Source: Tubiluchus corallicola
Taxonomy: Eukaryota; Priapulida; Priapulimorpha; Priapulimorphida; Tubiluchidae
Assembly (NCBI GenBank): GCA_030141605.1
Contig: JAQGDQ010000007.1
Location: forward strand, 421,173 to 485,172
Direction of reading: 5' to 3'
DNA length: 64,000 bases
Shown in pieces: positions 270 to 63,090 of this stretch (positions are counted from its first letter, which is position 1; every line of letters begins with the position of its first letter). Below the pieces are notes generated by a model that ran no database searches, was not told where the DNA came from, and saw only the letters and a list, made by a program, of their open reading frames with translations. A program made the position numbers and the translations under genes.

Positions 270-410
270 CATTTTTGCCAGGAGACACATTTTGGGATGG
301 ATTATTTTCGGATGGTTGCTATTTCACCAATATGAGTTTTGCAAATTACACCATATTGGAGTTAACATCGATGTCACCCACAATGTGCATCCACTTTTGC
401 TATGATTTGG
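270..410 (+). CDS. Cassette 1 exon A: first half of split WSC domain
   Basis: 47 codons, AG acceptor at 268-269, GT donor at 411. It starts AFLPGD and ends with the Cys pair MCIHFC. It is the longest A exon: about five extra residues precede the first Cys (SDGCY), where other copies have a short xTGC. Three Cys as in all A exons. The preceding exon is outside the window. Confidence 0.82.
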
Positions 411-3400: not shown

Positions 3401-6400
3401 ATATGGGATATGTGCGTATAAGAAAATTTTCCATTAGGGGTTAGGAGGCAAAAAAACGAAAAATAGGGCCAAGAAGAAAAATGCGCCTAGGGTCAAGCAG
3501 TAATACCATGCAGTATGTCAAAGGAAAATCTCGGTGAGACGAACTGAATGGCATAGGTTACAGTCAGAATAGTTAGCCTGCGACCCCAAGCGGGGGAAAA
3601 ATAACGGCAGAGGAGAAAATGCTTTCCAGTGTCATCCAAAACTAGGTTGTACTATATCAATAGAAAGGTCTCAATGAGTATGAGCTACTATTGGTTGATC
3701 TCTGACTCTAGTAGGGGGTCAAAAACCGGAAAATGGAAGTTGGGAACAGAAATGCATGGAGTGTCCAGGAGTACCATTTAGTATATCAAATTAAAGGTGG
3801 AATGGTTGAGGCAAATCGAAAGTCATAGGTTACAACGAGAATGTTAACCTGCAACCACTCTAGGAGACAAAATAGAGGCTGACGAAGCAAATTTATTACA
3901 GTGCCAACCGAGCCAGCTTGTATTACACTAATTGAAAGGTGTTAATGAGACAAATTGAATTGTATCTGTAATGACAAGATTGGTTGACTGATGACCCATG
4001 GGTCATGGGTTGAAAAGTTATGAGTTGAGATTTCATTGTAAAGTGCAGTTTCTACGGAATCAAGCATAGTGAATTTGATCAAATCAAAGTCACAACTTTC
4101 AAACAAAAGGCTGGCATCTTTTCATGAGTCAATTCACTGTACTTTGCTAAAAGTAAATGAAATAATAATTATACATAGTTAATGTCATCAATAAAGTGAT
4201 AAGTCATGTTGATTGTAATTTATTAAGTTTACAATTTAGCATTTACTTATATTGATTATTTTATATTGTTAATTGATTATTATTTAACCGAATCATTATT
4301 GTAATCAAATATTAATTTTTGATAGCTTTACTTACTTTATTTTTTGGTACTTTTTTGGTATCACCTAAGGGAGCTGTGCAACCAGCCAATTGAAAGAAAC
4401 TGTCTTTGGCAAAGTTCATGACTAATTGACATTAAGTAATTAACTAAGTTAATCAATTTTGTTACTTCTCGTTAACTTTAATGCAAAATACAATTTCTGA
4501 TTGATTGGTGGCAGTGTAGAACAGTGAACATTTGTTAAGCATGAGGATGTACATCAACTCATTTTTATGTAGATGGCTATGGCAAAATTATGACATCAGC
4601 AAAATCAATACTTATCAGTACTTTCCAACGCTTAGATTTCTCGGGATATTTTTTAAGCAGATATTCATGAGATTAGATTATTTAAAAAGGATTCTATTTT
4701 GCTATTTGTGTGATGTTCATTCCTTATTTTTAACAAAGTACCTAGATTGCTTAGGTTGTAGTCAGTTTCTATGGTCTTTTTAATTTACTCCAACGACTTC
4801 CTTGTTGCAAACTTTGATTGCAGAGGACTACTTGGGATGATCAATGGAACTGAGTATGTTATATTTAAGAAGGAGATTAATTATGTTTGCTGTTTGTAAT
4901 ACAAGGTTTTATGGTCACATTGCTTATTTTTCAAACATTAGTTTATCAAAGCCAGTGGAGAGGCAAGTAAAGCAATGCAGATAAACAGCAATATCTTATT
5001 TACTGTTAGTAGTTTTCTGTTGCACATTATCTTTTGCGAGTGACACTATAACAAATCAGGTATTTTATATATTATGATTAATAATAAGTTTCGTTTTTTC
5101 CAGCATTTGTACCAGGAGAGGAAGTTCAAACTGGTTGCTTCAAATTCATTCAAGAATTCTCAAGTTCCAATGTATTAAATCGCATGACAATGACTCCTGC
5201 AATGTGCATTCGTTTTTGTTATGATTTGGGTATGATACAGACTTATTAATTACATTCAATAAATTTAATTTTAATACATTATGAATATGTTAAATAATAT
5301 TACGGTTACTTGTTTTGTAGCACAACCGGGTAGTTTGTCAAAAAATCTAGTCTTCATCATCATATTTTAATCATGCAGACAACTTTTTGCTTAACGTATA
5401 TATGTATGTGTTATTACTTACCATTTGGACCTATTAATGTATTCAAAAAATAAAACATTTTAGCTGGGATAAATTATCACTCTCATAAATGTAATTAGTC
5501 AACGTCATCTAACTTTTTGCTGCAAACTTGCATGTTTAATAGATTTCATCAATTTACATTTTACGTAGCCGTTCCTCCAGCTTCCTCTTTTGGTGCCACA
5601 TTTTACAATGTTTTGTGGTTAGCAAGAAAAAATTGATTTCTCATTTTGTAAACATTAGTTTTGGACATGTTCTAACTTTTAGTTGGTTAGTTTTGATTGG
5701 TAACTCATTTGACAGATACGTATTGTTTACCATCTGCATTTGTCCTATTTTGGATTACATATCATTAGTTTTGGATCCATACATACCAGCAAAAGAACTT
5801 CCAAAAACAGGAGATATCTTTGATCAGAGTGATGAAAACTCATCTGCAACTGGTACCGCAACACTAGTAGTCATACAAAGACACCCTCTACCAAATGGCA
5901 CAGCAACACATTTTATGTCAGCCTTTAGAGACTATCATTTACTCTTCACTAAACCATCCTTATCTTTTTTTAACCACACATACTAATCACATTCCACACC
6001 TGTTTTACATTCCTTATTTATGTATTTTATGCTAACCTCATTTGCCCAGTTCTATTCACTTTAATATTTTCTTTGCCTGCTCACACACATGCCTGTAGTT
6101 TTCAATTTAATGCTTTGCCAACATCAGCATAAATATTATCATAGCTGATTATAAATACAGATAGTTCTTAAACGTTTAGCTTGCTTAGTTAATTGAAAGA
6201 GGCAAGAGTTTGTAAACTGTTGAGAAATTTTTCTTTTCGTATTGGGTTCCCTCAATAATGTTTTCAAATGATTTTATATTAATCACATTTATCTTATTTT
6301 TCCAGTTTAATTTGTCGAAAATTACAACTATGTTCGATTAGCCTGGACAGTTTGAGTTAAGGCATCAAATTGATTTGAATTTAATTGTTCTACTGGGTCA

Positions 6401-9400
6401 CTAAGAAACGTGAATCTGCTGAGATTGTGTCAACCTGAGCTGTCCAGAGACTAAATGAATGACTTGGCATATGACTTGATAGTGAAGATTATAGTTTGTC
6501 CCCCAGTTACTAACTTCATTTCTTTTTTTCAGATCAAGATTTTGCTGTGTTAAACAATTACGATGAATGTACATGTGGAGATTGTTTAACACCTCAGACT
6601 ATGCATGACCAGAGATATTGCGCTGCCTGTGGTGGAGCATTTATCAGCCGTAATAATTATTTTGAGCTGTGCGGTTCAAAATCAACAGGCTATAGTAGCG
6701 TTCAAAGAGTTTATTCTGGTGAGCAAAACTGATTTCAAACTTTGATACAAAGGGCTTATATTAACAATTTACCTTACATTATATTGTGTTTATTTAATTT
6801 TTAACTCATGAACTTGTTAAATAAACTTGTGTTTATTTCCTTATAATCAGTGTATATTATAAACTTATACTTGTATGGCAGAATACACTTAATAGATATG
6901 TGATTAAACCATTACATAAGCTGTCTTGGAGACTACAATTTGCAAGTGTAGAATGAGGTGGTCTTTATCTTTATAAATTTTTTTCTTAAACTTTAATAAA
7001 AACTGTTTTACTTTTTGTCACTGCTTTGGGGAATTGCAGAATCACTTTTGATATTCAATGAAGTTTTTGCTGGCTAATGGTGTGCTGGATTTTTATTGAA
7101 ACAAGTGCAAAACTGAAGTTTAAAGCTCAATTGTGGCACTTGTTTGAATTACACGATCAGTTCATATTGCATTACTTGATACTCGTATCAGTTAAGATAT
7201 TTACATTGTGTTGGGTATGAATATTTAATATTTAGTTGTTCTGATACAAAATTTGTTTAAACTGTTGAGCTTCACAGTGGTCTTAGTCTTTATAACGATT
7301 GCTTACGTATAGTGTGGAAAACAGCTCGTCATGACTACAGAGGATGCTGGGATTTTGGAAATGGCACTTCGTTTGCAAAATCAATCCCTGGTGTGAATTC
7401 AGCTTTTGAGTGCGTCTTTTTGTGCCGAACATTTAGCAAAACAGCACAGTCTATTGGTAGTTTTGCATTGGTAGAGAAAAGTGGTGCAGACTATGTCTGC
7501 TATTGTGATGATTCAATAGGGACAGGAAGAGCTTCTGTAGCTGCTAATTGTGGTTTTACGCCGTCAGCTCATCTGTCATGCCAGAAATGTCCGGGTGGCA
7601 ACGACGGTTTCTGTGGCGGTGACAATGGTTATGCAGTATATGACACAGGAGGTAGTAATTCTGTTTTTAATCCTCGCAACATCATATTGTTTTTTGTTTT
7701 TTTTTGTAAATCATTCATTTATTCAATATTGCACATTTGTGAACAGTTCCCATGACTGATAAGCTCACCTTAGGTTGGTATACAATTGTTAACAACAACA
7801 TAAGTCCATTTGTAATGGTTGCTAATGTAAAGAAAAAATACTGAATATAAAGAGCAGCAATAAATAATGCATAATAAAAATTATTTAAAATGTTTTATTC
7901 CATCAATATATTGTTGTGTTATCTTAATGTAAATAAACATTTTGATCTTCAGTCGATAAAGGGCTGCTTGAATGCAAAATGCAAATTTTGACCTTGTATT
8001 TAATAACTGATGACAAAGAGAGAGAATTAGATAAATAAAATCTTTTTAAATTAGCTGAAAAAAACATAAATTATTTTGATCGTGAGTCAATGAGGGCTGA
8101 ACATATGCAGAGTAGAAATTTTGACCTGCATATTTAAATAATTGATGTCAAAAGAAGAGAATTAGATAAATAAAGGCGCCTTAAATTCTCTGCTGTCAAA
8201 AAATGACATTATTATTTATTTCCCATTACATTTTTGTATCTGTGACTATTCAGATGTTCATTTATTGGGAGAATCACACTCTTAAACCCCTGTGATGTAC
8301 AGAGTTGCTATGTGTATTTGATGGAATAAACAATATTTGTTATTGAGGTTTACCAAGCATTTCTCTATGTAATATACCCCTTTTTGTTTTAGCACCACAT
8401 GAGTATCAAGGATGTTTCGCATACTATGAGCCAGATATATACTTCCCTGTTAAAGAATCACTTGATCAAGGATCTACTTCTTTAGATGATGATTGTCTAA
8501 CAAAGTGCAGAAATAAGGGATACTTTTTTGGTAGTGTCTATTATTCGTCAGTTGCTGAGTATGCATGTGCTTGCGGAAACGGGTTTCCGTTCCCCAAATT
8601 TTCACTGAATTGTGCATACTGTATGAAGACAACCAGTGGAACATGTCCCGGAAAAAATGCAGTTTCTGTTTACTCTACTGAAAGTGAGTATAATTACTGA
8701 CTTGTAGTATTACAGGTCACAGTGGTGGTTGTGGTGTTATGGTTATGCAGGTTATAGTGGGGATGTTGATGGTGTGGTGGTTGTTTAGCAACAGGAACAA
8801 TAATATTAACAATATTAACAATGTAATTACTCTGTGCAAAGGTTAGCAGTTTAAATCAATAAATCTGCCTAATTCAATGACAAAAGTTTATTGAATTTGA
8901 CATTTAAAAGACCATAAGGGCATCTCTTGAACTCGTCGACCTCGCTTTACAGGAATGAGAATTTTCCGCGGATACGCGGAATTCCGAGTTTTTGGAAGAC
9001 CAATAGTGCCATTTTTGTAAATCGCGTAAATTTGTTGAGAAAATTTTTACGGACCCAGTACATACAACCAGCTGACCACTAGTTGGCAGGCCGTCACTTT
9101 GTTTACATCACATACATCAGTGTAACCACGTGTATATCTGTATGTATAAAAATATAGAATCAATTGTGTGGAGTTATTTGAGTCAATTGCAGACAGTTTT
9201 TATATACTTTTGCATCGGAGCGGCCAGTACTTAGAGGCATTTTTGAGACAATTAGGTATCATGTATCCTTGATAGTTGGGTATTTTAAATTATGCATGAA
9301 ACAAAGTAATTGATATTTTAAGTCCACTTAGAGGCTCTCTATGGTCACAAAATTGCAATTTGTTGCTGTCTCCAAGGGGGCTTCGCCCCGTTGAACCCCC

Positions 9401-29260: not shown

Positions 29261-29304
<44 letters not shown>

Positions 29305-44209: not shown

Positions 44210-44242
<33 letters not shown>

Positions 44243-56200: not shown

Positions 56201-59200
56201 CTTTGTGTACAGATGTGGTGACTGTCATACAATGATGCATTCAATTTCCTGGTAGATTAAAATGGAAATATTTGAAGACCAAATTGTAAAAAATTTGTGG
56301 TCTTGTAAATGTGGCACTTTTGTTTATGATAGTAAATTCTTTTAATTTTTTTAGATGCACCTAACCATCAAGGATGCTTTGCATACTACAAGCCAGACAT
56401 ACACTTTCCAGTTACTGTACCTCTCAGTGGAGTAAATGATTTAGATGATATTTGTTTGATAAACTGTACAGATAAAGGCTATTACTATGGCAGTGTACAT
56501 TGTTCACAGAACGGAGAATTCTCGTGTAAATGTGGGAATGGATTTCCTTTTAGGAAATTTTCATTGAATTGTGCAAGATGTGTAAAGACAACAACTGGAA
56601 CATGTCCAGGAAAAAATGCAGTATCTGTTTACTCTACTGAAAGTAAGCATTTTTGGATATACACTGTTAAGCAATTATTCCTATTCTAATCAAGAAAGAA
56701 ATGTGATTGATTACTACATCCAAATATCTGTTCCATAAAATTATTTTGTTTTCCAAGACAGATCATATTCTCAATGTATTTTGCAGCACTCTTACTCTTA
56801 GTCTTTCTTACTCTGAGTATTTTTTAATTTACATTATCTTTATATACATTATTTTTATTCGTACTTTATTTTGTACACCACTTTGGGTTAGTTAGTTAAG
56901 TTAAACATAAAAAACAACAACACTATTTACATACACATACAAACTATATATTTGTTATCAGTATTTGTATGCAAATACTAAACAGTTGCTAAGTAACTTA
57001 TGATTATTTCATTTGTTCATTACTTTAGGTGTTCGTCATATGTACCTTCGATCCCATATAAACATTCCTTGATTGTAATGACATAGACAATTAAATTAGC
57101 GATACAACGCTCCATAAAAACGTCTAAGTTCAGTTTCTTAAACTAAAAAATATGTAAACACTCAAATGTCTTACATTAAATCTGATAATGCTTCTAGCAT
57201 CACTATACACAGTTTTTCATATTGCGATTAATAGTAAGTCTTATTCATGTTTTTTCATTATGGGTAAGAAAACACTATGATTGGCTGCCGTTAACCTTGT
57301 ACTTATAGGTCACATAAATAATGCAAAACATGCATATCATGCAATAGTGAAAAAAAAGTGAATTTCAATTTACAAATTACAAAATTACTGAATGTCAGGT
57401 GTTTTTAGCAGAAATATTCATAAATCTGATGAGATGATAGCAGTAAACAATTCAGTGTTTAAAAAAACAAAGCCAGTGTGACAGTTGAACATAGTACTTA
57501 AATTAATGTATACAAACTAACTGTTAAAGCATCTGATAGTTTTTTGATAAACTTTCCTTCTTATAATTTAAGTTTGTGCATGTTTTTTGGCAATTTGCAC
57601 TAGTTTAACAGCGTGACAAATTATTCTTCAGCTCTAAGTGTCGTTTTTGTTTGCTTGCATAAAAAGTTAAGAAATATCTTTTTTCCAGCAGTGCTGCCAT
57701 TCATAATTCTGTAAGAAAATACATTTTTAATTAGCATATTGAAGTTATAAAATTAATGTGAATACACATGTTTGGTTTATCAGGTTTGTTTTTAAAGCAT
57801 TGATTATTAAATGTCATGTTTAGATAACTGGCACCTTTGCTTTAAGCAGTAAGCTTTTCTGTGATTAGTTTTTTCTATGTACATTTTTATCTTCTAGATT
57901 TTGAGTTTACTTCGAAAATCTTGGGATGCTGGGAAGATAGAGATCCTGATGCAGAACAGCCTCATAATGGAGAAAGAGACATGTCATACCTGATTACATT
58001 TCAGAATTTGACACCTGAAAAGTGCAAGCTGCATTGTTTGGAACTTGATTATGCATTTGCAGGCTTACAGAATGGAACTGAGTGTTATTGTAGTAATTCG
58101 TATGGGAGATACCAACCTTCCAGAAACCCTTGTAACATGAAATGTGGCAGTACTAGTGAACGTTGTAATTTGCATGATAAATCTTGTTTAACTTGTGGTG
58201 GTGAGTGGGCATTAGAGGTTTATCCTTCAAGTGGTGAGTATTTGTGTAAATTTGTAATTTTGAAATACACCCATATCTCGGTTTGCTGGACCTCGCTTTT
58301 ATGGATATCGGAAGACTCGGGCAAAATCTGGACCCCTAAAATGTCTCACATACTACGGACACAGTCTGTTGTTTTGCGAGCTGACTGCTAGTTGGTGGGC
58401 TATCACTTTGTTTACATTATTACATCAGTGTAAACAAGCAGTGTGTAATGAAATGTGTGTTGCTCGTATTGTTTCCAAGACTACATAAAAATAGTAAAAG
58501 CTGATTGGTCACACACAAAAGTATCTTATTTAAGCATATGCAGAAATATTATACAGTCAATTACACAGAGTTATTTGTGTCAATTGCCAACAGTCTTTAT
58601 ATACTTTTGCATGGGAGCTATCTGTACTAGATGTTTTTGAGACAATCAGGCGATTTATTCTACATTACTGTGAGTCTAATACGCAGCGCTAACTGTGTAT
58701 TAGCTTTGTATCGGTAAATACGGACAATTGGAACTTCATATTTTGCAAACTGAGATATGAGTGTATGTGTTAGCTCTGTTGGTATATGTAAATTATCTGC
58801 ATTTACTAATTTGTTTATAAGTATAGTTTTAGAGACTAGCACTGCTGCCACTTCACTATTCTTGACAACTTATACATCTAATGAAGCATTTTAATTTTTG
58901 TGTATTAATTCTCATTGAAAATTTAATTTTACATTGGACTCACAGAAGGAGGAACAGAAGGTGAAAACCTGAAAATACATTATTCATCACATTTCAGTCA
59001 GGTTCCAAGTTCCGAGTTTAGTTAAATTAAAATTGATTATTGAATTAAATTAGTAAAACCAAGTAAATAAAACACTACCTGTAACATTTGTGCATTATTT
59101 ATTATACTAATTTCAATTTAATCCAAATGTTACACATTGTGCTTTTGTAGCCTTTTGCTTACAAATGTAAACTAGTTAATAATTGATTTGTACCATTGTT

Positions 59201-62200
59201 GCATTTGTGTTGTTGTTGTTTGTTGTTGTTGTTGTTGTTGTTTGCTGTTGCTGTTGTTTATCAAAAGCAGCATCATTGCTGTTGCTGTTGTTGATGAAGA
59301 TGTTGACTGTGATTATCTTGATGATAACGATAACAGTGACAATGATGTTTTCCTGTTAGAAGAAAATTTGGAAGGAAGTTTAGCCAGAAATTTTTGTATT
59401 CAAGGATTTTTTTGTATTCCTCAAATATTTTTAGGGTTTTGCTACTCTGATAATTAATATTATAAGTACTTTTTTGTTGCTATTGTCTCAAGGCTTGATT
59501 AACTCATTTTTTACACTTTTCAGCTTTAGTATCAGCAGCTGTTAATGAAACTGATTAACTTCATTAAAATCACTAACATTGCGTGTATTGTGTTAGAATT
59601 TTTTGCATTGTCTTTCCTTTTTAACCTGTTGAAAAATAGCCATGGGCTAATGTTGTCCTTAGTAAAATTTTAACAATAGATAAAATTTTTACTACTTGCT
59701 ATTACTACAAGTTTTTATTTTGGTTATTCTGCCTTGCCTAACCAGTGTTTAATTTTTTCTATTGTTCTAGACTTTGTGCCTGGAGAAGAACTGGGAACTG
59801 GTTGCTTTAGACAAATTCAAACAGATGCTTTTGATGAATCTACCATCTTAAGAAGACAAAGCATGTCGGCAAGAATGTGTGTTGGTCACTGCTATGAACT
59901 GGGTATATGTTGTTTAATTTACTTGCTTTACAATTATTCTGGGTGAAATCTACAGTCAAAGTTGTGGTAAATTAGAAAAATTAGTATAATTTCCAAAAAA
60001 AACATAACTTTTGGACACTAAGCATTTATTAATTTCTTTTCTCAAGTCATGATACTACCCTGGTCTCTAATGTGAATTATGCAAGACGTCGTATGTCTAA
60101 TTTAATTAAAAAATGGTATTTTTTCTGTGCTTACCAAAATTATATTGTATTTTACATTGTATTTTAAAAAAGCTTCACACTCATTAAATAAGTCACTTAT
60201 TCCATGCTATGCATCTAATACACTTTTCGTCAGAATATTTGTATGCTCTGTGCAACATTTTCACTGTGGGAATGTGCAATCGGTTGTATTTGTTTAACAT
60301 TTTTAGGTGCAGTAGAGCATGTTGGCTTTGTGCAGGAGAAGTTTCAGTTTAAGTAAAACAAGACCCAATTTGCAAAGTGTTAAAAGAGTTATTGCGTAGA
60401 CCAAAAGTTACATTACAGATTTAGAATTTATAGTTTGCAATGTTTCATGACAGTCACCAATTTCCATTAACTGACCACCTTCAGAGCTTGATGCTGTAAC
60501 CATTGAGTCCCTGTTCTACTTGTAATTTCTTCTTTTATTTTGGAATCCTAATTAGTACAGATATTTGTCAGAAAACATTGCAGTTGTGCAGTAGCAAATA
60601 TTTTGTTTGGATAGTTGATCCTTATTCTCACTCTCATGTGTCTCTGTCTATTTGTCTTTCTGTTTTTATTTTTATTTTTACGCAGAACATGACTTTGCTG
60701 TGTTGACTAATTATGATGAATGTAAGTGCACAAGCAACACAGTTTTCCAAGCTGAAGGTGACACTAAACACTGTGCACCGTGCGGTGGTTCCTGGAATGG
60801 GAGAAACAATCAGTACGGTCTCTGTGGAAGGAAAGGTTACGTCGGCGTGTACAGAGTTTATTCTGGTAGGTTAAGATAGAAATTAAGAAAATATAATTTA
60901 TTGTTTTGCTTCATTCTACTAAATTGCTAAATCAAAGTATTCTAAAATAAACTATAAATCACGGGTTGAGTGTCAGATCCAGCTGTATTTGGATCTTCAA
61001 GTTTTTCACGTTTAAGAGGTTTAAACAATAGTCAGAGACTTTGACTGCTGTTCATCACAGCATATGAACTAACTTGCTTTGCTGCACTCGATTTATGATG
61101 TATGTGACGAAGCTTGCTATAATTCCTGTACAGAGTTATTTAAAAAGATAAAAAATAGCTTATTAAGCAAATTTAACTGCTTTGTTGTACGGAAATTTAT
61201 CTTATTATTGTAACTTGTATAGATTTACTGCATTTGGATTCTTGGAATCTACCGCGTATAGAACGTCCAGTTTATTCAACATGCACTTTCCAAAGTGCTA
61301 ATAAATGGATAAGTTCATCTTCTAGTAGGCATCGTTAATATTTGTATAATCCATACACTTAGCTGATTCTTGGAAACTGTTACAAACTGATCAGATCCAG
61401 TTGAGCCCCACACAAATGCCAATAAGTAGCTCCTCATGATGCTGTTTATCATTGTATTTTTGGCTTTAAAAGCTGTGCTGTAATTCATACGTAATGTCAA
61501 TGTAATCCATTTCAAAAAGCTGTTTTTCAGCTCAGAAATGCTGCAACTATGTAAAACTGGTTCAACTGTGACAAGCTGAAAATGCCTGATTTTGAATATC
61601 TACAACTTTTGAATCACTTTAAGCATTTCACTTATCTGTTGAACTCCACTGAGCTTACGTGTCTTTTCTTTGCAGTATGGAAAGAGGCTCGTCATGAGTA
61701 TAGAGGATGCTGGAGATTCCCATCTACTCTCACTTTTGCGACATCTTTTATTAATATAAATTCCGCCTACGAATGTCTATATAAATGCAATGAACTCAAA
61801 ACAACTCAATCTGAACATTATTTCGTACTTCTTGGCCAACAAAATGGTGACAGCGTCTGTCATTGTGACGACAACTTAGGAACAGGAAATGCTATTGCAC
61901 CTGCTGATTTTTCTTGCAGTAAATGCCCTAATGAAGAAAGTGGTTACTGTGGCATGGATAAAGATGTGTATGCAGTGTATGACACAGGAGGTAACATGCA
62001 TTGACGGAATTATTCAGTATTATATGTAAACTATGTATTTAGTTGTGTATAGGCAATGTTGAGTAGTAAGAATGAGATTTAATATGCTACTAAAATATGC
62101 TATAGGTTACTTACACTTTTTTATTTTGTGTCAAATGTTGGTGAACCCAAGAGTGGATGATATTGCTCACTCATCGGGAAGGTCCGTGTTTCCTTCCGAT

Positions 62201-63090
62201 TCTTGTCAAAATCTATTTTTTGTTTTTGGTTTTTTCATTGCAGAAGCTCGTTCTTATCATGGCTGTTTTGCAAATTATAAAACGGAGTCGTACTATCCTT
62301 TTACTGTGTCACTTGCAAACTTTACCTCTGACTTGGACACTGAATGTCTCACGCTATGTCAAAATAAAGGTTATTACTTTAGCAGTCTTCATTATTTGGA
62401 GACAGACAACTACACTTGTAAGTGTGGCAATGGTTTTCCATTCAAAAGGTTCTCATTAAACTGTGCAAGCTGTACAGAGACAACTCATGGATTTTGTCCG
62501 AAGAAAAATGCAGTTTCTGTTTATGCTACAGAAAGTAAGTTTTGGTCCAGTGTTACTGGGTGTTTATTAAATTTATTTTGAATAAATATTGCACTGGAGT
62601 GTTTACATGTTGATATGCAGTAAATAATTTTGATAGTTTGTGATTTGGCTTATTTTCACTTAACGTAATAATTGTTTTGTTTATTTCTGTTTGGGAAAGC
62701 AGTCTCTAGTAAAATTCATCATAATTTTTTGTGTTTTTATTGTAGATTTTCCAGTTGACTCTGACATGTTAGGCTGCTGGGAAAACAAAGATTCAAAACA
62801 ACCAGACCTGAAAGATAGTCACTTTGAAGTCAAAGACATGACACCAGACAAGTGTGAAACCCACTGTTCTGAAGAGCTGTATGGTTATGCTGGCGTACAG
62901 AATGGTACGCACTGTTACTGTGGCAATATATACGGACATCAGTTGCCTGCAAAAAACCCTTGCAACTATGTCTGTGGTTATGAGAAATATGGCAATTGGA
63001 TCTCGCATGAAACAGAAAACTGCAGTGTTTATGAACAAGACTGTATAAGTTGTGGTGGTAGATGGGCTCTGCAACTACACCCGACCAATG
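270..63090 (+). CDS. Internal part of a giant poly-WSC-domain gene (50 exons, ten A-B-C-D-E cassettes)
   Basis: Fifty exons of five recurring types occur in strict order A-B-C-D-E, ten times. All are flanked by AG/GT splice sites in phase 1 and all lengths are multiples of three, so they join into one open frame of about 4,200 codons. Exons C, D and E each encode a full WSC-type domain (GC[W/F] start, paired Cys, CxCG-like centre, CxxC, aromatic V/A-Y end); A plus B encode a fourth split by an intron. Linkers between domains are only a few residues, giving a tightly packed string of about 40 domains with about 340 cysteines. No initiator, signal peptide, membrane segment or stop is visible, so both ends lie outside. 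Known: WSC domains are extracellular and linked to glycan binding. Inferred: secreted or cell-surface matrix, mucus or adhesion protein. The alternative of several adjacent genes is disfavoured because no first or last exon is seen between cassettes. Individual exons are listed below. Confidence 0.85.
1114..1302 (+). CDS. Cassette 1 exon B: second half of split WSC domain
   Basis: 63 codons. It opens NFAILPSYDEC and carries five Cys, ending in SGRNNNFGVCGSK and IYTVYG. It replaces the usual CGGAF with CSGAF and ends VYG rather than VYS. Donor GTAAGT. With exon A it completes an eight-Cys domain. Confidence 0.82.
1530..1850 (+). CDS. Cassette 1 exon C: complete WSC-type domain
   Basis: 107 codons. 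VWKSGRHDYRGCW at the start, ECVSRC, VCYCDD in the centre, CEKCPG, and AVYDTG at the end; eight Cys. It is followed by a very short (105 bp) intron, a trait shared with cassettes 6 and 8. Confidence 0.88.
1956..2276 (+). CDS. Cassette 1 exon D: complete WSC-type domain
   Basis: 107 codons, the longest D exon (the others have 96-97). APHEYQGCF start, CMNACRDRGY, CFCGNGFPY, NCPRC and GTCPRD. About ten extra residues lie in two places: the PNISVVGYD loop, and the segment after the CxxC pair. Ends VYATQ. Confidence 0.88.
2545..2883 (+). CDS. Cassette 1 exon E: complete WSC domain, 10-Cys type
   Basis: 113 codons. VDSDFLGCWRDKS start, SPEKCRAHC, CFCGNTYGRYGPALNPC, CISCGGSWALAVY end. Ten Cys rather than eight. 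Its GCWRDKS opening is closest to that of exon E of cassette 5. It is followed by a 2.2-kb intron. Confidence 0.9.
3420..4020. repeat. Degenerate tandem array, period about 140 bp
   Basis: Recurring blocks of the form 'ACC-ATxxAGTATATCAAA-AAAGGT', 'CATAGGTTACA-GAGAAT-GTTA' and 'CTGxGACC-GGGGxCAAAAA' follow each other in the same order. The last block recurs near 3437, 3580, 3708, 3850 and 3988, giving four to five diverged units. It is more GC-rich than the surrounding intron. No coding frame persists through the units. Confidence 0.6.
5104..5229 (+). CDS. Cassette 2 exon A: first half of split WSC domain
   Basis: 42 codons. FVPGEEVQTGCFKF start, RMTMTPAMCIRFCYDL end; three Cys. Acceptor CAG at 5101-5103, donor GTATGA. 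Too short to stand out as an open frame; recognised by similarity to the other A exons and by phase. Confidence 0.82.
6533..6718 (+). CDS. Cassette 2 exon B: second half of split WSC domain
   Basis: 62 codons. DQDFAVLNNYDECTCG start, YCAACGGAF, RNNYFELCGSK, VQRVYS end; five Cys. The acceptor has a strong pyrimidine tract (TTTCTTTTTTTCAG). Donor GTGAGC. Confidence 0.87.
7313..7651 (+). CDS. Cassette 2 exon C: complete WSC-type domain
   Basis: 113 codons, the longest C exon. YRGCWDF, ECVFLC, VCYCDDS, CQKCPGGN and AVYDTG. An extra segment (NCGFTPSAH) sits just before the CxxC pair and adds a ninth Cys. Otherwise closest to exon C of cassette 1. Confidence 0.88.
7940..8207. repeat. Two-copy diverged tandem duplication, period about 134 bp
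   Basis: Copy 1 starts TTTTGATC at 7940 and copy 2 at 8074. Shared blocks include GAGGGCTG/AAGGGCTG, ATTTTGACCT, ATTTAAATAA-TGATG and GAGAATTAGATAAATAAA, in the same order and spacing. Confidence 0.65.
8393..8683 (+). CDS. Cassette 2 exon D: complete WSC-type domain
   Basis: 97 codons. APHEYQGCFAYYEPD start, DDDCLTKC, CACGNGFPF, NCAYC and GTCPGKNAVSVYSTE. It lacks any ATG, so methionine-initiated ORF finding misses it. Acceptor TTTTAG at 8387-8392, donor GTGAGT. Confidence 0.88.
8917..9260. mobile_element. Dispersed repeat, second copy of the TA-flanked MITE at 58268
   Basis: It shares, in order, GACCTCGCTTT-A-GGA, ACTAGTTGG, TCACTTTGTTTACAT, CATCAGTGTAA, GAGTTATTTG-GTCAATTGC, TTTATATACTTTTGCAT-GGAGC and TTTTTGAGACAAT with 58280-58650. 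The ends are not sharply defined here; the left end reads AGGGCATCTC after ATA. Confidence 0.6.
9373..9500. repeat. GC-rich block with two nested short hairpins
   Basis: A sharp GC-rich island in AT-rich intron. It contains the palindromes GGGGCTTCGCCCC (9377-9389) and CCCCCATGGGGG (9396-9407), then a pyrimidine-rich stretch. It looks like part of an inserted repeat next to the 8917 element. No RNA gene is recognised. Confidence 0.45.
9835..10182 (+). CDS. Cassette 2 exon E: complete WSC domain, 10-Cys type
   Basis: 116 codons. VMSDVLGCWEEKRPG, ERDMPYEAP, TPEKCRAHC, CFCGDTYGRYHPALNPC, CSTCGGDWAL. Potential N-glycosylation at ANLT. Nearly identical to exon E of cassette 7 (18 differences in 348 nt by hand count), although 37 kb apart. 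Confidence 0.9.
11027..11158 (+). CDS. Cassette 3 exon A: first half of split WSC domain
   Basis: 44 codons. FLPGDALRTGCLRL start, FGSLNRMTMSSAMCVKYCYQS end; three Cys. The FGSL segment is shared with exon A of cassette 6. Donor GTATAA is weak beyond GT. Confidence 0.8.
12857..13045 (+). CDS. Cassette 3 exon B: second half of split WSC domain
   Basis: 63 codons. DQDFAVLTSYDECTC, YCAVCGGAFTGRNNYF, HCGSKNTGYAMVYRVYS; five Cys. The segment between the CxC and YCxxC pairs is one or two residues longer than in cassettes 4, 5, 7, 9 and 10, as it also is in cassettes 2 and 8. Confidence 0.87.
13330..13890 (-). mobile_element. Decayed LINE reverse-transcriptase fragment
   Basis: On the minus strand, around 13808-13860, the translation gives NNYEKAFDHVYHNCIVE, the RT motif with FD. 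It continues through a GVLS-like QGCVLS, then YASETWTVNQ and, near 13500, a block resembling FGHLV. This order matches the RT core and C-terminal part of non-LTR retrotransposons. Stops and frameshifts break it. It lies antisense in the B-C intron of cassette 3. Confidence 0.7.
14393..14707 (+). CDS. Cassette 3 exon C: complete WSC-type domain
   Basis: 105 codons. VWNEARPEYRGCWNF, ECVSHC, ICHCDDT, CEKCLGG, YCGSGAGVYAVYDTG; eight Cys. The usual CPG after the CxxC pair is CLG here. Confidence 0.88.
15617..15907 (+). CDS. Cassette 3 exon D: complete WSC-type domain
   Basis: 97 codons. APHKYQGCFAYYKPD, CVTMCRDKGYYF, CRCGNGFPF, NCESC and GTCPGKNAISVYTTE. The mid loop is SGFYPSLTDEY instead of the common SSLHYxQxxEY. 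Eight Cys. Confidence 0.88.
17772..18095 (+). CDS. Cassette 3 exon E: complete WSC domain, 10-Cys type
   Basis: 108 codons. VESDILGCWEN, ERDMVYRSSGI, TPDKCRLHC, CYCGNTYGRYAPARNPC, CFTCGGSSAIEVHP. From 17831 to the donor it differs from exon E of cassette 8 at only six positions by hand count. The split codon at its end uses A, not G. Potential N-glycosylation at VNLT and ENGT. Confidence 0.9.
18604..18690. repeat. Imperfect CAT/ATC trinucleotide microsatellite
   Basis: A run of ATC/CAT triplets with interruptions (CATCATCATCATCACC) inside the E3-to-A4 intron. Confidence 0.8.
18919..19050 (+). CDS. Cassette 4 exon A: first half of split WSC domain
   Basis: 44 codons. IFQPGEKLRTGCYSSSPSYN, STTEMRLSMTPKMCVHHCF; three Cys. 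The first codon is split A|TA (Ile), matching the A that ends the preceding exon E. Closest to exon A of cassette 9. Confidence 0.82.
19235..19417 (+). CDS. Cassette 4 exon B: second half of split WSC domain
   Basis: 61 codons. AHDFAVLTNHDECKC, SNVEFQDAQ, HCAKCIGAWTGR, FCGR, SVYRVYS; five Cys. It shares the CKCxSNVEFQ block with exon B of cassette 9. Confidence 0.86.
20734..21042 (+). CDS. Cassette 4 exon C: complete WSC-type domain
   Basis: 103 codons, the shortest C exon. WKRAADDHEYRGCWRF, DCLSQC, CFCDDSFGTG, CPRCPGEN, FCGDRNNVYAVYDTG. The ADD insertion before YRGC is shared with cassette 9. The loop after the third Cys is shortened (RQQQLRAPFAL). Confidence 0.88.
21453..21743 (+). CDS. 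Cassette 4 exon D: complete WSC-type domain
   Basis: 97 codons. APLEYQGCFAYYKPE, VCELLCENKGYFF, CRCGNGFPFRKF, NCLSC, GVCPDGNAVLVYATS. The end reads ATS instead of STE, but the codon is still split after A. Eight Cys. Confidence 0.88.
22024..22113 (+). mobile_element. 5-prime-truncated LINE 3-prime tail
   Basis: The sequence GATCATGAC-T-AATTTTACT-TTTAC-TTTACTCA-GTTTAAAATG followed by CCTAATAAA and an A-rich tail closely matches 44064-44150, where it follows LINE coding remnants. Only the last ~90 bp is present. It ends about 40 bp upstream of the exon E acceptor at 22152. Confidence 0.65.
22153..22461 (+). CDS. Cassette 4 exon E: complete WSC domain, 10-Cys type
   Basis: 103 codons, the shortest E exon. 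SDVLGCWEDNVERDMAY lacks the loop found between GCWED and ERDM in other copies. TPEACKLHC, CFCGNSYGRYGPARNPC, CLTCGGEWALLVYP. Closest to cassette 9. Its acceptor lies about 40 bp past a LINE 3-prime tail. Confidence 0.9.
22566..22797. mobile_element. Foldback MITE with ~80-110 bp inverted arms
   Basis: The left arm (TGTACTTTATT, CAGA-AACAAAG-TCA-TGTAACACGACTG, CACTTTGC) recurs in reverse complement at the right end (GCAAAGTGTTGGG, CAGTCGTGTTACA, AATAAAGTACA). The whole element can fold into one long hairpin. No coding capacity; target duplication unclear. Confidence 0.65.
23110..24439. repeat. Minisatellite, 46-bp unit, about 29 copies
   Basis: The unit runs AACTTAACAAATAATTGATG, then CTTGATACCAAG and TTCACTCTGCTAGT (46 bp). 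It repeats head to tail with few substitutions (C/T after GATA, GCTAGT/GTCAGT, GATGCTT/GATACTT). Two units near 23641-23692 are shortened to about 25 bp. It lies wholly within the E4-to-A5 intron. It is not a CRISPR array: there are no unique spacers. Confidence 0.95.
25137..25268 (+). CDS. Cassette 5 exon A: first half of split WSC domain
   Basis: 44 codons. FMFGEELGSGCYKQ, FDESTMLRRKSMSARMC, HCYGL; three Cys. It shares the FDEST-LRR-SMSARMC block with exon A of cassette 10. The usual PGEE is FGEE here. Confidence 0.83.
26080..26259 (+). CDS. Cassette 5 exon B: second half of split WSC domain
   Basis: 60 codons. GHNFGVLTSYEECKCTSS, KCAACGGSWNGRRNHWGFCGRKGYIGVY; five Cys. Closest to exon B of cassette 10 (GGSWNGR and CGRKGY are shared). 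The YC of the YCxxC pair is KC here. Confidence 0.87.
27726..28043 (+). CDS. Cassette 5 exon C: complete WSC-type domain
   Basis: 106 codons. VWREARYQYRGCWRFPPG, RCMSRC, ICHCDDTFGTGNAIGAS, CEKCPGDSDGFCG, YAVYDTG; eight Cys. The GTGNAI block is shared with cassette 10. Confidence 0.88.
28375..28662 (+). CDS. Cassette 5 exon D: complete WSC-type domain
   Basis: 96 codons. APHEYQGCFPYYRS, DCAIKCRDQGYLF, CKCGNGFPFQKF, DCGSC, GICPGENAVTVYSTE. The common NC before the CxxC pair is DC. Eight Cys. Followed by the largest intron in the window (4.5 kb). Confidence 0.88.
28867..29625. mobile_element. hAT-like non-autonomous element with 8-bp target duplication
   Basis: The left end CAGAGCCGGCTCTAGG is matched by an inverted right end TAGAGCTGGCCTTG (11 of 14). 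The flanks TCTATGTG (28859-28866) and TCTAAGTG (29626-29633) match 7 of 8, the size expected for hAT insertion. The interior is non-coding and includes a TA microsatellite. The right end is repeated once more about 60 bp downstream (to about 29690). Confidence 0.7.
29263..29302. repeat. (AT)n microsatellite, about 20 repeats
   Basis: An uninterrupted AT dinucleotide run inside the hAT-like element; likely length-polymorphic. Confidence 0.95.
29583..29691. repeat. Two-copy tandem duplication of the hAT-like right end
   Basis: GAGGCAACTG-CCAGTTTGCCTAGTGGTAGAG-TGG-CTTGTCTAAG occurs twice about 57 bp apart with a few substitutions. Confidence 0.7.
29824..31884. mobile_element. Candidate DNA transposon with ~37-bp terminal inverted repeats
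   Basis: The left end starts ATGCGATTTTCAGTTG; the right end in reverse complement starts ATGCACTTTTCAATTG. Over 37 bp, 28 positions agree by hand count. Related motifs recur just inside the left end (near 29897 and 29999). I see no clear target duplication and no recognisable transposase; short frames (30731-30988, 30985-31197 minus) have no family I know. Confidence 0.45.
31153..31238. repeat. Perfect 30-bp inverted repeat with 26-bp spacer
   Basis: The arm starting GAAGCAAAGTGTGGGG at 31153-31182 is repeated exactly in reverse complement at 31209-31238. It would form a strong hairpin. Confidence 0.9.
32168..32375 (-). pseudogene. hAT transposase C-terminal (dimerisation) fragment
   Basis: The minus-strand translation contains VSVALCERSFSKLKQIKNH followed by MRSTVGQPKLSDLSVE, the signature of the hAT-family C-terminal dimerisation region (xSCERSFSxLKxIK...RLxxL). 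Only the C-terminal piece survives. Upstream the frame runs into unrelated repeat sequence at a small palindrome (ACACAGGATG-GTGT-CATCCTGTGT near 32378-32401). Confidence 0.75.
33156..33491 (+). CDS. Cassette 5 exon E: complete WSC domain, 10-Cys type
   Basis: 112 codons. VESDLLGCWRDKSP, ERDMSHSAGLQTRDDC, CYCGNSYGRHGPALNPC, CRTCGGAWALQVY. TPEKC is replaced by TRDDC. The GCWRDKS opening matches cassette 1 best. Ten Cys. Confidence 0.9.
35068..35193 (+). CDS. Cassette 6 exon A: first half of split WSC domain
   Basis: 42 codons. ALSPGDEHQTGCYN, FGSLKRITMSSKMC, YCYQL; three Cys. Closest to exon A of cassette 3. A TTAA-bounded repeat starts only about 50 bp past its donor. Confidence 0.8.
35244..37647. 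mobile_element. TTAA-bounded element I (2.4 kb, piggyBac-like ends)
   Basis: Left flank TTAA at 35240-35243, then AGGATAAGAAAAG; the right end CTTTCCTTGTCCT is followed by TTAA at 37648-37651. The subterminal regions on both sides match those of element II (ATCTTAA-CATA-TACTCACGTTAAA on the left; GTGATATAATTTTTTA-TGCGA-TTTTCTGA on the right). The interior (about 35560-37490) shows no transposase; the short frame at 35566-35805 is unrecognised. Confidence 0.6.
37652..38113. mobile_element. TTAA-bounded MITE II (462 bp), abutting element I
   Basis: It starts AGGACAAGAAAAGG after TTAA (37648-37651) and ends TTTTCTTGTCCT before TTAA (38114-38117). The inverted arms extend about 80 bp (AGGACAAGAAAA, TTTCAGAAAATT / CCTCAGAAAATT, ATCTTAA). 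The middle TTAA is shared with element I, making a near-perfect palindrome at the junction. No coding capacity. Confidence 0.72.
38758..38943 (+). CDS. Cassette 6 exon B: second half of split WSC domain
   Basis: 62 codons. GRDFAILKNYDECTCGNGS, YCGACGAAFTGRNNYFSLCGDK, YAAVYKVYQ; five Cys. It ends VYQ rather than VYS; the next exon is still joined in phase 1. Confidence 0.85.
39165..39479 (+). CDS. Cassette 6 exon C: complete WSC-type domain
   Basis: 105 codons. EWTEARLEYRGCWSF (the first codon is Glu, not the usual Val), ECISLC, VCHCDNSSGIG, CKKCPGGNDGYCC, FAVYDTG. YCCE replaces YCGx, giving nine Cys at 39437-39442. Similar to cassette 8. Followed by a 107-bp intron. Confidence 0.86.
39587..39877 (+). 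CDS. Cassette 6 exon D: complete WSC-type domain
   Basis: 97 codons. APHEYQGCFLHFESE, ECLTMCRNSGYFF, CYCGNSYPFQKYTFSCASC, GTCPRRSAVSVYTTE. The strongly conserved GNGFPF is GNSYPF here. Donor GTAAAT is weaker than in sister copies. Confidence 0.87.
40390..40704 (+). CDS. Cassette 6 exon E: complete WSC domain, 10-Cys type
   Basis: 105 codons. VTSDILGCWREDRNMPYKAP lacks about eleven residues present between GCWEE and ERNMPY in cassette 7. TPEKCRAHC, CFCGNTYPGVYPGAHPC, CSTCGGNWSIAVYPTY. The flanking intron sequence on both sides resembles that of cassette 7. Ends with a split A. Confidence 0.89.
42012..42137 (+). CDS. Cassette 7 exon A: first half of split WSC domain
   Basis: 42 codons. ISVPGEELGTGCYRKNP, HAGLTPKMC, YCFEL; three Cys. 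The first codon is A|TT (Ile), consistent with the A left by the preceding exon. The most divergent A exon in its middle (NYNATLMPFH). Confidence 0.8.
42659..42838 (+). CDS. Cassette 7 exon B: second half of split WSC domain
   Basis: 60 codons. GYDFTLSTSSWECRC, SEKAFESE, YCVSCFGAFTARNNYYGLCGR, GLYRVYS; five Cys. The conserved NYDECxC is SSWECRC and CGGAF is CFGAF. The acceptor TTTTTTTTAAG is strong. The frame is intact despite the divergence. Confidence 0.82.
43084..43960 (+). pseudogene. Decayed LINE reverse-transcriptase fragment
   Basis: One frame from 43101 gives PDDTVLYKV (a degenerate form of the YADD catalytic block), then NNYCRANKLALNASKNKLI and YKHLGVYLSKE, the order seen in the palm and thumb of non-LTR RTs. 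After 43385 the frame shifts several times but traces persist (SLVWPILEY in another frame near 43430; a final frame at 43700-43885). Catalytically dead. Confidence 0.75.
43968..44053. repeat. Inverted repeat in LINE 3-prime region
   Basis: GTGCCTACTACTG-TATGGATGACAG at 43968-43992 pairs with CTGTCATCCATGG-CAGTAGTAGGCAC at 44024-44053, with a small bulge. It probably belongs to the 3-prime untranslated part of the LINE copy that precedes it. Confidence 0.75.
44060..44152 (+). mobile_element. LINE 3-prime tail
   Basis: GATCATGAC-ATAGAATTTTACTG, TTTACTCAAGTTTAAAATG and CCTAATAAATAATAAAATG match 22024-22113. The tail leads into a microsatellite, typical of LINE 3-prime ends. Confidence 0.65.
44153..44240. 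repeat. Compound palindromic microsatellite (GAT)n(AAT)n...(ATT)n
   Basis: GAT and AAT triplets run into CACCATCATCATCATGG and then TTA triplets, so the two halves are reverse complements and can fold back. Confidence 0.9.
44388..44714 (+). CDS. Cassette 7 exon C: complete WSC-type domain
   Basis: 109 codons. VWKTVSAGDSEYRGCWNY has an insertion before YRGC. ECLFQC, MCHCDDSSGVG, CPNCSSGNSGFCGG, VYAVYDTG; eight Cys. It shares HFALIGKK and CPxC with cassettes 4 and 9. Confidence 0.87.
45501..45791 (+). CDS. Cassette 7 exon D: complete WSC-type domain
   Basis: 97 codons. APHQYQGCFGRYKT, ECVAKCRNQGYYYSSLHYTQ, CKCGNGFSFTRF, NCASC, GTCPGKNAVSVYSTE; eight Cys. GFPF is GFSF here. Confidence 0.89.
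47051..47398 (+). CDS. Cassette 7 exon E: complete WSC domain, 10-Cys type
   Basis: 116 codons, same length as exon E of cassette 2 and nearly identical to it, with a long central run differing at only one or two bases. VMSDVLGCWEEKRPG, TPEKCRAHC, CFCGDTYGRYHPALNPC, CSTCGGNWASEVYPTY. Its ends and flanking introns resemble cassette 6 instead, suggesting gene conversion. Confidence 0.9.
47516..47641 (+). CDS. Cassette 8 exon A: first half of split WSC domain
   Basis: 42 codons. VFVPGEELRTGCFKFAQNF, GGLKQITMSSTMC, YCYAL; three Cys. Separated from the preceding exon E by only 117 bp, the shortest E-to-A intron in the window. Confidence 0.83.
48707..48898 (+). CDS. Cassette 8 exon B: second half of split WSC domain
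   Basis: 64 codons, the longest B exon. DQGYAVLTNYDECKCATVG, YCVACGGAFNGRNNYLSLCGSK, YAAVYRVYS; five Cys. The extended stretch before the YCxxC pair resembles cassette 3. Confidence 0.87.
49666..49977 (+). CDS. Cassette 8 exon C: complete WSC-type domain
   Basis: 104 codons. VWKEASHEYRGCWKL, ECMTHC, VCHCDDSTGTGRA, CEKCPGGNDGYCS, FAVYDTG; eight Cys. The usual YCG is YCS. Followed by a 105-bp intron as in cassettes 1 and 6. Confidence 0.88.
50083..50373 (+). CDS. Cassette 8 exon D: complete WSC-type domain
   Basis: 97 codons. APHEYEGCFGHYKPE, ECVTKCRDEGYLFGSLHYSQ, CKCGNGFPFMRF, NCARC, GTCPGKNAVSVYSTD; eight Cys. YQGC is YEGC. Donor GTAAGT. Confidence 0.89.
50970..51293 (+). CDS. Cassette 8 exon E: complete WSC domain, 10-Cys type
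   Basis: 108 codons. VESDIMGCWKDKGLTEAERDMVY, TPDKCRLHC, CYCGNTYGRYAPARNPC, CFTCGGSSAIEVHP. From 51029 to its donor it matches exon E of cassette 3 except at six positions by hand count; upstream of that point the two diverge. Ends with a split A. Confidence 0.9.
51668..51799 (+). CDS. Cassette 9 exon A: first half of split WSC domain
   Basis: 44 codons. IFTPGEELRSGCHLSS, YNLNESTTLKRLSISSEMCVHHCFAL; three Cys. The first codon is A|TA (Ile). Closest to exon A of cassette 4 (YNLN-STT and MCVHHCFA are shared). Confidence 0.83.
52173..52352 (+). CDS. Cassette 9 exon B: second half of split WSC domain
   Basis: 60 codons. DHDFAVLTKYDECKCTSNVEFQ, YCGRCASAWTSGNNYF, LCGRNNYYAVNRVYS; five Cys. Closest to cassette 4. 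CGGAF is CASAW, and the GRNN motif is SGNN. Confidence 0.86.
52553..52601. repeat. TTA/TTG trinucleotide microsatellite
   Basis: TTA triplets flank a run of seven GTT units within the B-C intron of cassette 9. Confidence 0.92.
53597..53920 (+). CDS. Cassette 9 exon C: complete WSC-type domain
   Basis: 108 codons. VWKRTADDPDYRGCWKF, ECLSLC, MCQCDRTLGTG, CPRCPLGDEGFCG, VYAVYDLG; eight Cys. It ends DLG where all others have DTG. Closest to cassette 4 (WKR-ADD, CPRCP). Confidence 0.88.
55067..55230. repeat. Exact 82-bp tandem duplication
   Basis: The segment starting GGTTGAGGAGCGTTG at 55067 is repeated with no difference at 55149. Absence of any change implies a recent duplication or an assembly artefact. 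Confidence 0.93.
55227..55730. mobile_element. Nested hAT-like MITE (about 504 bp) with 8-bp target duplication
   Basis: The left end CATTGGCGGCTC and the right end (reverse complement CAGGGGCAGCTT) agree at 8 of 12. The flanks CCTTTGGC (55219-55226) and CCTTTGAC (55731-55738) match 7 of 8. Non-coding interior. Confidence 0.55.
56355..56642 (+). CDS. Cassette 9 exon D: complete WSC-type domain
   Basis: 96 codons. DAPNHQGCFAYYKPD (one extra residue before AP), ICLINCTDKGYYYGSVHC, CKCGNGFPFRKF, NCARC, GTCPGKNAVSVYSTE. An unpaired-looking ninth Cys sits in the VHCSQ loop (56501-56503) where sister copies have Tyr. Confidence 0.87.
57898..58233 (+). CDS. Cassette 9 exon E: complete WSC domain, 10-Cys type
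   Basis: 112 codons. FTSKILGCWEDRDPD, ERDMSY, TPEKCKLHC, FAGLQNGTECYCSNSYGRY, CLTCGGEWALEVYP. The CxCGN motif is CYCSN. Closest to cassette 4. Potential N-glycosylation at QNLT and QNGT. Confidence 0.9.
58268..58763. mobile_element. TA-flanked MITE (Tc1/mariner-type), 496 bp
   Basis: The left end CACCCATATCTCGGTTTGC and the right end (reverse complement CACTCATATCTCAGTTTGC) agree at 17 of 19. TA lies on both sides (58266-58267 and 58764-58765), as expected for Tc1/mariner/pogo insertion. No transposase. A related copy is at 8917-9260. Confidence 0.75.
59203..59295. repeat. GTT-rich trinucleotide microsatellite
   Basis: GTTGTT runs interrupted by T and GCT units, in the E9-to-A10 intron. The long Cys/Val frame across it is an artefact of the repeat. 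Confidence 0.88.
59771..59902 (+). CDS. Cassette 10 exon A: first half of split WSC domain
   Basis: 44 codons. DFVPGEELGTGCFRQ, FDESTILRRQSMSARMC, HCYEL; three Cys. Nearly the same as exon A of cassette 5 in its second half. Confidence 0.84.
60686..60865 (+). CDS. Cassette 10 exon B: second half of split WSC domain
   Basis: 60 codons. EHDFAVLTNYDECKCTSN, HCAPCGGSWNGRNNQYGLCGRKGYVGVYRVYS; five Cys. Closest to cassette 5. Acceptor TACGCAG, donor GTAGGT. Confidence 0.87.
61676..61990 (+). CDS. Cassette 10 exon C: complete WSC-type domain
   Basis: 105 codons. VWKEARHEYRGCWRFP, ECLYKC, VCHCDDNLGTGNAI, CSKCPNEESGYCG, VYAVYDTG; eight Cys. Shares GCWRFP and GTGNAI with cassette 5. The middle (NELKTTQSEHYFVLLGQ) is divergent. 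Confidence 0.88.
62244..62534 (+). CDS. Cassette 10 exon D: complete WSC-type domain
   Basis: 97 codons. EARSYHGCFANYKTE replaces the usual APHEYQGC opening, then ECLTLCQNKGYYFSSLHY, CKCGNGFPFKRF, NCASC, GFCPKKNAVSVYATE; eight Cys. Potential N-glycosylation at ANFT and DNYT. Confidence 0.88.
62746..63090 (+). CDS. Cassette 10 exon E: complete WSC domain, 10-Cys type
   Basis: 115 codons. VDSDMLGCWENKD, VKDMTPDKCETHC, CYCGNIYGHQLPAKNPC, CISCGGRWALQLHP. It carries an extra stretch (EKYGNWISHETE) between the seventh and eighth Cys that no other copy has. Donor GTAAGA at 63091. No exon A follows before the window ends. Confidence 0.89.

Follow-up and report, generated by a model that had tools for sequence, protein, structure and literature searches.

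The 64,000 nucleotides analysed here (the window) very probably represent the middle part of one gene of the polycystin-1/REJ family, of at least 122 kb, in which the 50 WSC-type exons of the window encode ectodomain of a membrane receptor-channel. The array is read in this way because exons for REJ, GPS, transmembrane, PLAT and polycystin-channel segments come next on the same strand, and all exons would be spliced into one transcript. The giant extracellular glycan-binding or matrix protein that had been proposed in an earlier note on this DNA is not borne out, since a secreted protein should have no membrane part and co-directional GPS, transmembrane and channel exons lie downstream, although a secreted isoform may exist.

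Polycystin-1, a protein linked to kidney disease, has been proposed to sense force or ligands by its ectodomain. In a natural relative with an ectodomain that consists mostly of a single type of repeated domain, possibly glycan-binding and arranged in countable cassettes, the role as a tether would be set apart from the contributions of PKD repeats, LRR and C-type lectin. Such a relative would also illustrate how a giant receptor can arise when exons are duplicated cassette by cassette, and the WSC family gains an extreme case for testing avidity.

The exon array in the window

A search of the window with profiles made from three to five hand-picked copies of each exon type yielded 50 exons, all on the + strand and in the strict order A-B-C-D-E ten times over, with reverse-strand matches below 10 bits. 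The same 50 in-phase exons in ten cassettes had been described earlier, with identical count and end points (270 and 63090). Profiles rebuilt from these exons, which match the window's own 50 exons by construction, gave 60 raw forward matches of at least 15 bits, cross-type overlaps included, and none in reverse; in five block-shuffles of the window they found nothing at 15 bits or above, the best score being 11.6 bits. The cassettes, all located with profiles, are as follows.

Cassette 1, 270..2883, + strand: A 270-410, B 1114-1302, C 1530-1850, D 1956-2276, E 2545-2883; start of A moved by hand from 282
Cassette 2, 5104..10182, + strand: A 5104-5229, B 6533-6718, C 7313-7654, D 8393-8683, E 9835-10182; start of A moved by hand from 5116
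Cassette 3, 11027..18095, + strand: A 11027-11158, B 12857-13045, C 14393-14707, D 15617-15907, E 17772-18095; start of A moved by hand from 11039
Cassette 4, 18919..22461, + strand: A 18919-19050, B 19235-19417, C 20734-21042, D 21453-21743, E 22153-22461
Cassette 5, 25137..33491, + strand: A 25137-25268, B 26080-26259, C 27726-28043, D 28375-28662, E 33156-33491
Cassette 6, 35068..40704, + strand: A 35068-35193, B 38758-38943, C 39165-39479, D 39587-39877, E 40390-40704
Cassette 7, 42012..47398, + strand: A 42012-42137, B 42659-42838, C 44388-44714, D 45501-45791, E 47051-47398
Cassette 8, 47516..51293, + strand, 117 bp past cassette 7: A 47516-47641, B 48707-48898, C 49666-49977, D 50083-50373, E 50970-51293
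Cassette 9, 51668..58233, + strand, 374 bp past cassette 8: A 51668-51799, B 52173-52352, C 53597-53920, D 56355-56642, E 57898-58233
Cassette 10, 59771..63090, + strand: A 59771-59902, B 60686-60865, C 61676-61990, D 62244-62534, E 62746-63090; the gene continues outside the window

Joined, the 50 exons comprise 12,606 nt with 344 cysteines and 4,201 complete codons without a stop, in agreement with the more than 4,200 codons given earlier. All exon lengths are multiples of three and all edges are in phase 1, where AG/GT borders and phase 1 were requirements of the search; the acceptors of the A exons of cassettes 1, 2 and 3 were shifted by hand 12 nt upstream to fit the other A exons. The edges are credible because the homologous position is the same in nearly every copy. 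Median dN/dS among copies, with saturated pairs set to 0, lay between 0.11 and 0.26, depending on the exon type. A cassette codes for four domains of the WSC type, one by A and B together and one each by C, D and E.

Among the non-coding parts of the window, the intron between E4 and A5 holds a minisatellite with a unit of 46 bp (22971-24570, about 1.6 kb, or some 35 units by length), and that between C9 and D9 a perfect tandem duplication of 82 bp (55067-55230). Open frames at 63292-64000 and beyond, in an intron of the gene, resemble what we take to be pieces of a non-LTR retrotransposon reverse transcriptase.

Assignment of the repeats to the WSC family

When the array is extended beyond the window (see below), its 49 domains all align on eight cysteine columns, of which seven are kept in 49 of 49 domains and one in 48. 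A profile search against the Pfam WSC model, as had been suggested earlier, is clearest for the E exons of the window, with 10/10 matching at E<=0.1 and all ten above the curated cut-off in a search of the genome, and for the joined A+B exons, with 10/10 at E<=1 (best 2.2e-9). By Pfam the matches are weak for C (6/10 at E<=0.1, best 6.7e-6) and for D (5/10 at E<=0.1, best 4.8e-4). The curated PF01822 cut-off of 27.8 bits was also passed by two upstream E exons and by the one A+B domain compared in bits (32.2), while the C and D exons so compared stayed under it. Seven upstream single-exon domains were scanned, and six matched at E<=0.01; the remaining one, a C exon, gave no Pfam WSC match.

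Against PDB chains, the E profile matched Kremen1 (9.1e-10) and yeast Wsc1 (chain 7pz2, 0.0055). Profile-profile comparison of E gave a probability of 94 with A+B and middling values of 61 and 64 with C and D. The structural model of exon C (pLDDT 80.4) aligned with Kremen1 at Z 11.3 (rmsd 2.8, 94 residues), with yeast Wsc1 at Z 8.6 (rmsd 2.8, 89 residues) and with glyoxal oxidase at Z 8.6 (rmsd 3.0, 93 residues), the next rows being at Z 5.7. A Foldseek search with this model gave no match under E 0.001, the best being yeast Wsc1 at E 0.078. The model of exon D was too poor to use (pLDDT 56.9). A PAN/apple-like WSC fold is predicted by modelling for exon C, and for that exon alone.

Extent of the array and its 5' end

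The flanks were examined over 30 kb upstream and 60 kb downstream, using window numbering throughout (contig position = window + 421172, contig C1831). Further WSC-type exons were found on both sides.

-19494 to -19183, + strand: upstream single-exon domain X, end set by hand
-18881, + strand: upstream C exon, from exon profiles
-12943, + strand: upstream D exon, from exon profiles
-10526, + strand: upstream E exon, from exon profiles
-9643 to -5283, + strand: upstream whole cassette A-B-C-D-E, with its last E at -5591 to -5283, from exon profiles
66650-66781, + strand: downstream A exon, from exon profiles
67897-68076, + strand: downstream B exon, from exon profiles

The full array thus has 61 exons (9 upstream and 2 downstream of the window) that add up to 15,396 nt, 5,132 codons and 49 domains, so that the earlier count of at least 40 tandem WSC-type domains in one coding string holds with 40 in the window and is exceeded in the extended array. 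The shortest introns between an E and the next A exon are 117 and 374 bp, the last is 3,559 bp, and the largest gap, 5,552 bp including a stretch of N, lies just upstream of the window. Separate genes are unlikely at the two joints of 117 and 374 bp because these introns are so short. Between the exons at -5283 and 270 there are 1,759 bases of N and, on the reverse strand, frames at -4469 to -2035 that presumably derive from a non-LTR retrotransposon reverse transcriptase.

The window had also been described as free of start, stop, signal peptide and membrane segment, which is right for an internal slice of a gene, except that an in-frame ATG at 209 is followed by a strongly hydrophobic run straight into exon A1. 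This ATG could be an alternative start that gives a shorter form. Such a form, with its own signal peptide, 41 domains and the polycystin part, might even mean that there are two genes or promoters, with the nine WSC exons farther upstream being part of a different gene or of a longer isoform, and the position of the largest E-to-A gap directly upstream would fit. We nevertheless consider this unlikely: the same hydrophobic pattern precedes at least 6 of the 61 exons when judged by eye, because polypyrimidine tracts translate to hydrophobic residues, and the upstream exons keep the same cassette order and phase up to the E exon at -5283. A single gene running through this position is preferred.

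Extension in both directions for a signal peptide and a C-terminus, as advised earlier, gave a stop codon at the 3' side (see below) and no signal peptide above background at the 5' side. The best upstream candidate, at -23436 to -23373, was rejected, as 2 candidates in 8.6 kb compare with 20 in 86 kb when nested ones are counted, and we therefore propose no start.

Polycystin-1-type exons downstream of the array

Over 122 kb, the order on one strand is WSC, REJ, GPS, PLAT, polycystin domain and channel. The downstream features are listed with the limits of open frames, which are not exon edges, in continued window numbering.

68853-69584, + strand: REJ, weak (Pfam 0.11)
73561-73791, + strand: REJ (Pfam 6.2e-6)
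74626-74979, + strand: REJ (Pfam 3.3e-10)
86610-87629, + strand: 340-residue open frame, very rich in Cys, located after the REJ and before the GPS exons and unmatched by any Pfam family
89411-89596 and 90394-90636, + strand: GPS, split over two frames, the latter with the first hydrophobic segment (Pfam 3.2e-7, joined by hand)
91433-91639, + strand: PLAT (Pfam 9.5e-7 alone, 7.8e-20 as three exons joined by hand)
99918 and 101099, + strand: weaker polycystin-domain pieces (Pfam)
101475-102722, + strand: polycystin domain and polycystin channel (Pfam 2.4e-20 and 7.3e-19)
102723-102725, + strand: TAG stop at the end of the channel exon, about 39 kb past the window

Two of the REJ frames score 25.5 and 39.6 bits at a Pfam cut-off of 25, and the genome search has REJ matches at C1831:492225 and 495810. 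The Pfam PKD repeat was not matched in frame 68853-69584, the sole frame before REJ that was scanned. The GPS motif, located before the first transmembrane segment, reaches 31.2 bits (cut-off 22.5) with its two exons joined by hand; in the exon-wise genome search none of the 13 GPS matches was on C1831, and the frame on the transmembrane side was unmatched by itself, as would be expected because the motif is split over two exons. It carries the sequence HLT, which we take to be the predicted cleavage position.

The channel exon matched the PDB chains of PKD2L1 (1.6e-23), polycystin-2, PKD1L3 (9.6e-21) and polycystin-1 (2.2e-7), and a second transmembrane frame matched human polycystin-1 (E 0.0012). 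Compared with the eleven transmembrane segments of the polycystin-1 family, the six open frames scanned contain 13 hydrophobic segments, or 11 if one that is likely intronic and one inside the polycystin domain are left out by hand. In the alignment the channel exon has IRN where the pore of PKD2L1 has LGD, presumably the position of the selectivity filter, a difference that weighs against our reading. Downstream of the gene there is a pair of 1.2-kb repeats that are 99% identical (106037-107229 and 113347-114539).

These features also bear on the possibility that the array encodes a secreted multivalent WSC lectin or matrix protein, with the polycystin-like gene as a separate neighbour. The 3,559-bp length of the last E-to-A intron could be taken as a sign of separation. 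Against this, the last B exon sits 0.8 kb before open frame 68853 on the same strand, the WSC exons are stop-free, and WSC is a known N-terminal part of polycystin-1, as far as the available text of PMC5318412 goes. Together with the arrangement at other loci, described below, this makes two neighbouring genes very unlikely, and a single receptor-channel gene remains our reading.

Other loci in the genome

The genome searched (343.5 Mb in 2,344 contigs) gave at least 85 WSC, at least 78 REJ and at least 55 channel matches. Among the matches listed, 13 of the 38 contigs with WSC also had REJ or channel, and 25 had neither, which would suit a secreted WSC protein. The order WSC-REJ-channel on one strand, which argues for one gene, is found on C1831 and on seven other contigs (C862, C1882, C859, C1705, C485, C198 and C2172). 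WSC lies upstream of REJ, with no channel match listed, on C2250, C2025 and C911, and upstream of a channel match, with no REJ listed, on C2160; on C1226 the order is reversed, the channel match being on the wrong side of the WSC match.

Cassette arrays occur elsewhere too. The one on C1176 has 26 exons, i.e., five whole cassettes plus an A exon, and occupies most of this 38.4-kb contig, while those on C354 and its mirror C2254 contain three D exons each. The array on C2254 ends with E-A-B, as does that of C1831, and has no REJ or channel match listed, which also favours the secreted alternative and makes it doubtful that arrays of this kind are always attached to a polycystin. In the 30 kb past this array, 5,854 bases of which are N, the exon profiles gave no additional WSC exon.

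Five contigs (C1882, C1923, C198, C2172 and C1930) have REJ and channel matches in single open frames of 2,437 to 2,748 residues, and their polycystin-1-like genes are apparently intronless. Equal-scoring matches across contigs and mirror-image pairs within one contig were seen for C1787/C2264/C2138, C354/C2254, C2160 and C2061, which suggests that the assembly holds uncollapsed or inverted duplications there. The genome further has eight loci that we take to be of the Hox type, including labial-, pb-, Hox3-, Dfd- and Antp-like homeodomains and another that bears a UbdA-like tail, a set that hints at a protostome. Searches for COX1, GFP and mollusc haemocyanin gave no match, the last two being silent in every control genome as well and hence no sign of absence.

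Origin of the array

In a tree of the domains, several nodes of which are weak, the domains group by type and not by cassette, so the duplication unit is the whole cassette. Judged from these sequences, the array appears to have grown by duplication of a four-domain cassette, and a block of five cassettes was probably duplicated as well: cassettes five apart have a mean identity of 0.58, more than expected and a value reached in 26 of 20,000 permutations of cassette order, with the likeness coming from exons E and A+B while C and D contribute little.

Two pairs of E exons stand out, E2-E7 (9835-10182 and 47051-47398) with 93% and E3-E8 (17772-18095 and 50970-51293) with 91% DNA identity, while the identity of the other domains of cassette pairs 2-7 and 3-8 is 0.39 to 0.62. 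Since dS of these E pairs is about 0.09 and the stretch that is alike covers about 380 bp round the exon, local gene conversion is suggested and seems likely.

For same-type exon pairs the median identity is 0.39 to 0.58 by type; 62 of 225 pairs have saturated synonymous sites, and dS exceeds 0.4 in all but 4. In view of this low identity and high dS, an assembly artefact is an unlikely source of the array, even though the assembly elsewhere has duplicated and mirror-image matches.

Proposed function

The predicted product would expose about 49 WSC-type domains, a REJ region and a Cys-rich stretch outside the cell, followed by a GPS (self-cleavage) site at the membrane and by a membrane-spanning part that includes a PLAT domain and the core of a polycystin channel. 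The WSC string may bind an extracellular glycan or matrix, weakly per domain and tightly as a whole. Tension on this tether, or its occupancy, could act via the GPS-proximal stalk on the channel, which would probably be shared with a partner of the polycystin-2 type.

Cleavage at the GPS might instead free the WSC-rich part as a soluble multivalent lectin or ligand, and both the HLT sequence in the motif and the proposal, in the available text of PMC9672506, that an N-terminal fragment of polycystin-1 is a soluble ligand are compatible with this. The sequence gives nothing that favours release over tethering, and we regard a soluble function as doubtful; a tethered ectodomain is assumed in what follows.

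A more far-reaching possibility, which we put forward tentatively, is that these proteins form a distinct polycystin-1-like class in which a string of about 49 WSC domains replaces the mixed ectodomain, binds glycans by avidity and may provide a tether longer than 0.15 micrometre (our estimate at 3 to 4 nm per domain). The lineage might then have several such genes with differing array lengths, and the sensing range might be tunable by cassette number.

Comparison with known systems

Comparisons with published proteins refer to the text of the cited papers as far as it was available. In fungi, yeast WSC domains have eight cysteines, and a single WSC domain has no obvious ligand cavity (PMC9024836). 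The three WSC domains of SiWsc3, a fungal beta-1,3-glucan lectin, together appear to form a site for this glucan (PMC9024836), and tandem domains that apparently act together are what it has in common with the array described here; it differs in having three domains, in being a cell-wall protein and in lacking a membrane channel. Yeast Wsc1 and Kremen1 share the fold of the exon-C model, but each has just one WSC domain, set in a different context. A venom protein of an annelid that has two such domains (PMC5336659) was dismissed as a relative, being without a polycystin part in the text available. In titles and abstract openings of the papers listed by literature searches, with most subscription journals outside the scope, no animal protein with a comparable WSC array was found.

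Vertebrate polycystin-1 has WSC, REJ, PLAT and channel in the same order, plus GPS (PMC5318412, PMC9672506). According to the same available text, its WSC domain is single and accompanied by LRR, C-type lectin and numerous PKD repeats, as opposed to about 49 WSC domains here. Wnt binding is reported for its WSC and C-type lectin domains, and it is proposed that the GPS stalk and the channel signal upon engagement of the ectodomain (PMC9672506).

Other animals have related proteins. In sea urchin, the REJ-family members SpREJ6, 7 and 10, like human PKD1, carry a WSC domain (PMC1934368); the available text speaks of "a WSC domain" and does not mention an array. Of the sea urchin proteins, just SpREJ2-7 and 10 are described there as having PKD repeats (PMC1934368), which means that family members can lack them. 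Among cnidarians, a REJ skeletal protein of Acropora digitifera has the arrangement WSC-PKD-REJ-GPS-PLAT (PMC4890752), and WSC, REJ and PLAT are shared with it and with the Polycystin 1-like protein of Nematostella, GPS being named for the coral (PMC4890752, PMC8846589). The cnidarian proteins differ by the presence of PKD domains, and a WSC array is unmentioned in the available text. A figure legend in a planarian paper holds that the complex N-terminus of PKD1 is restricted to chordates (PMC11448475), which is contradicted by the cnidarian papers. Polycystin-1 relatives that bear WSC are thus already known from vertebrates, sea urchin and cnidarians, and it is the 49 copies that are new.
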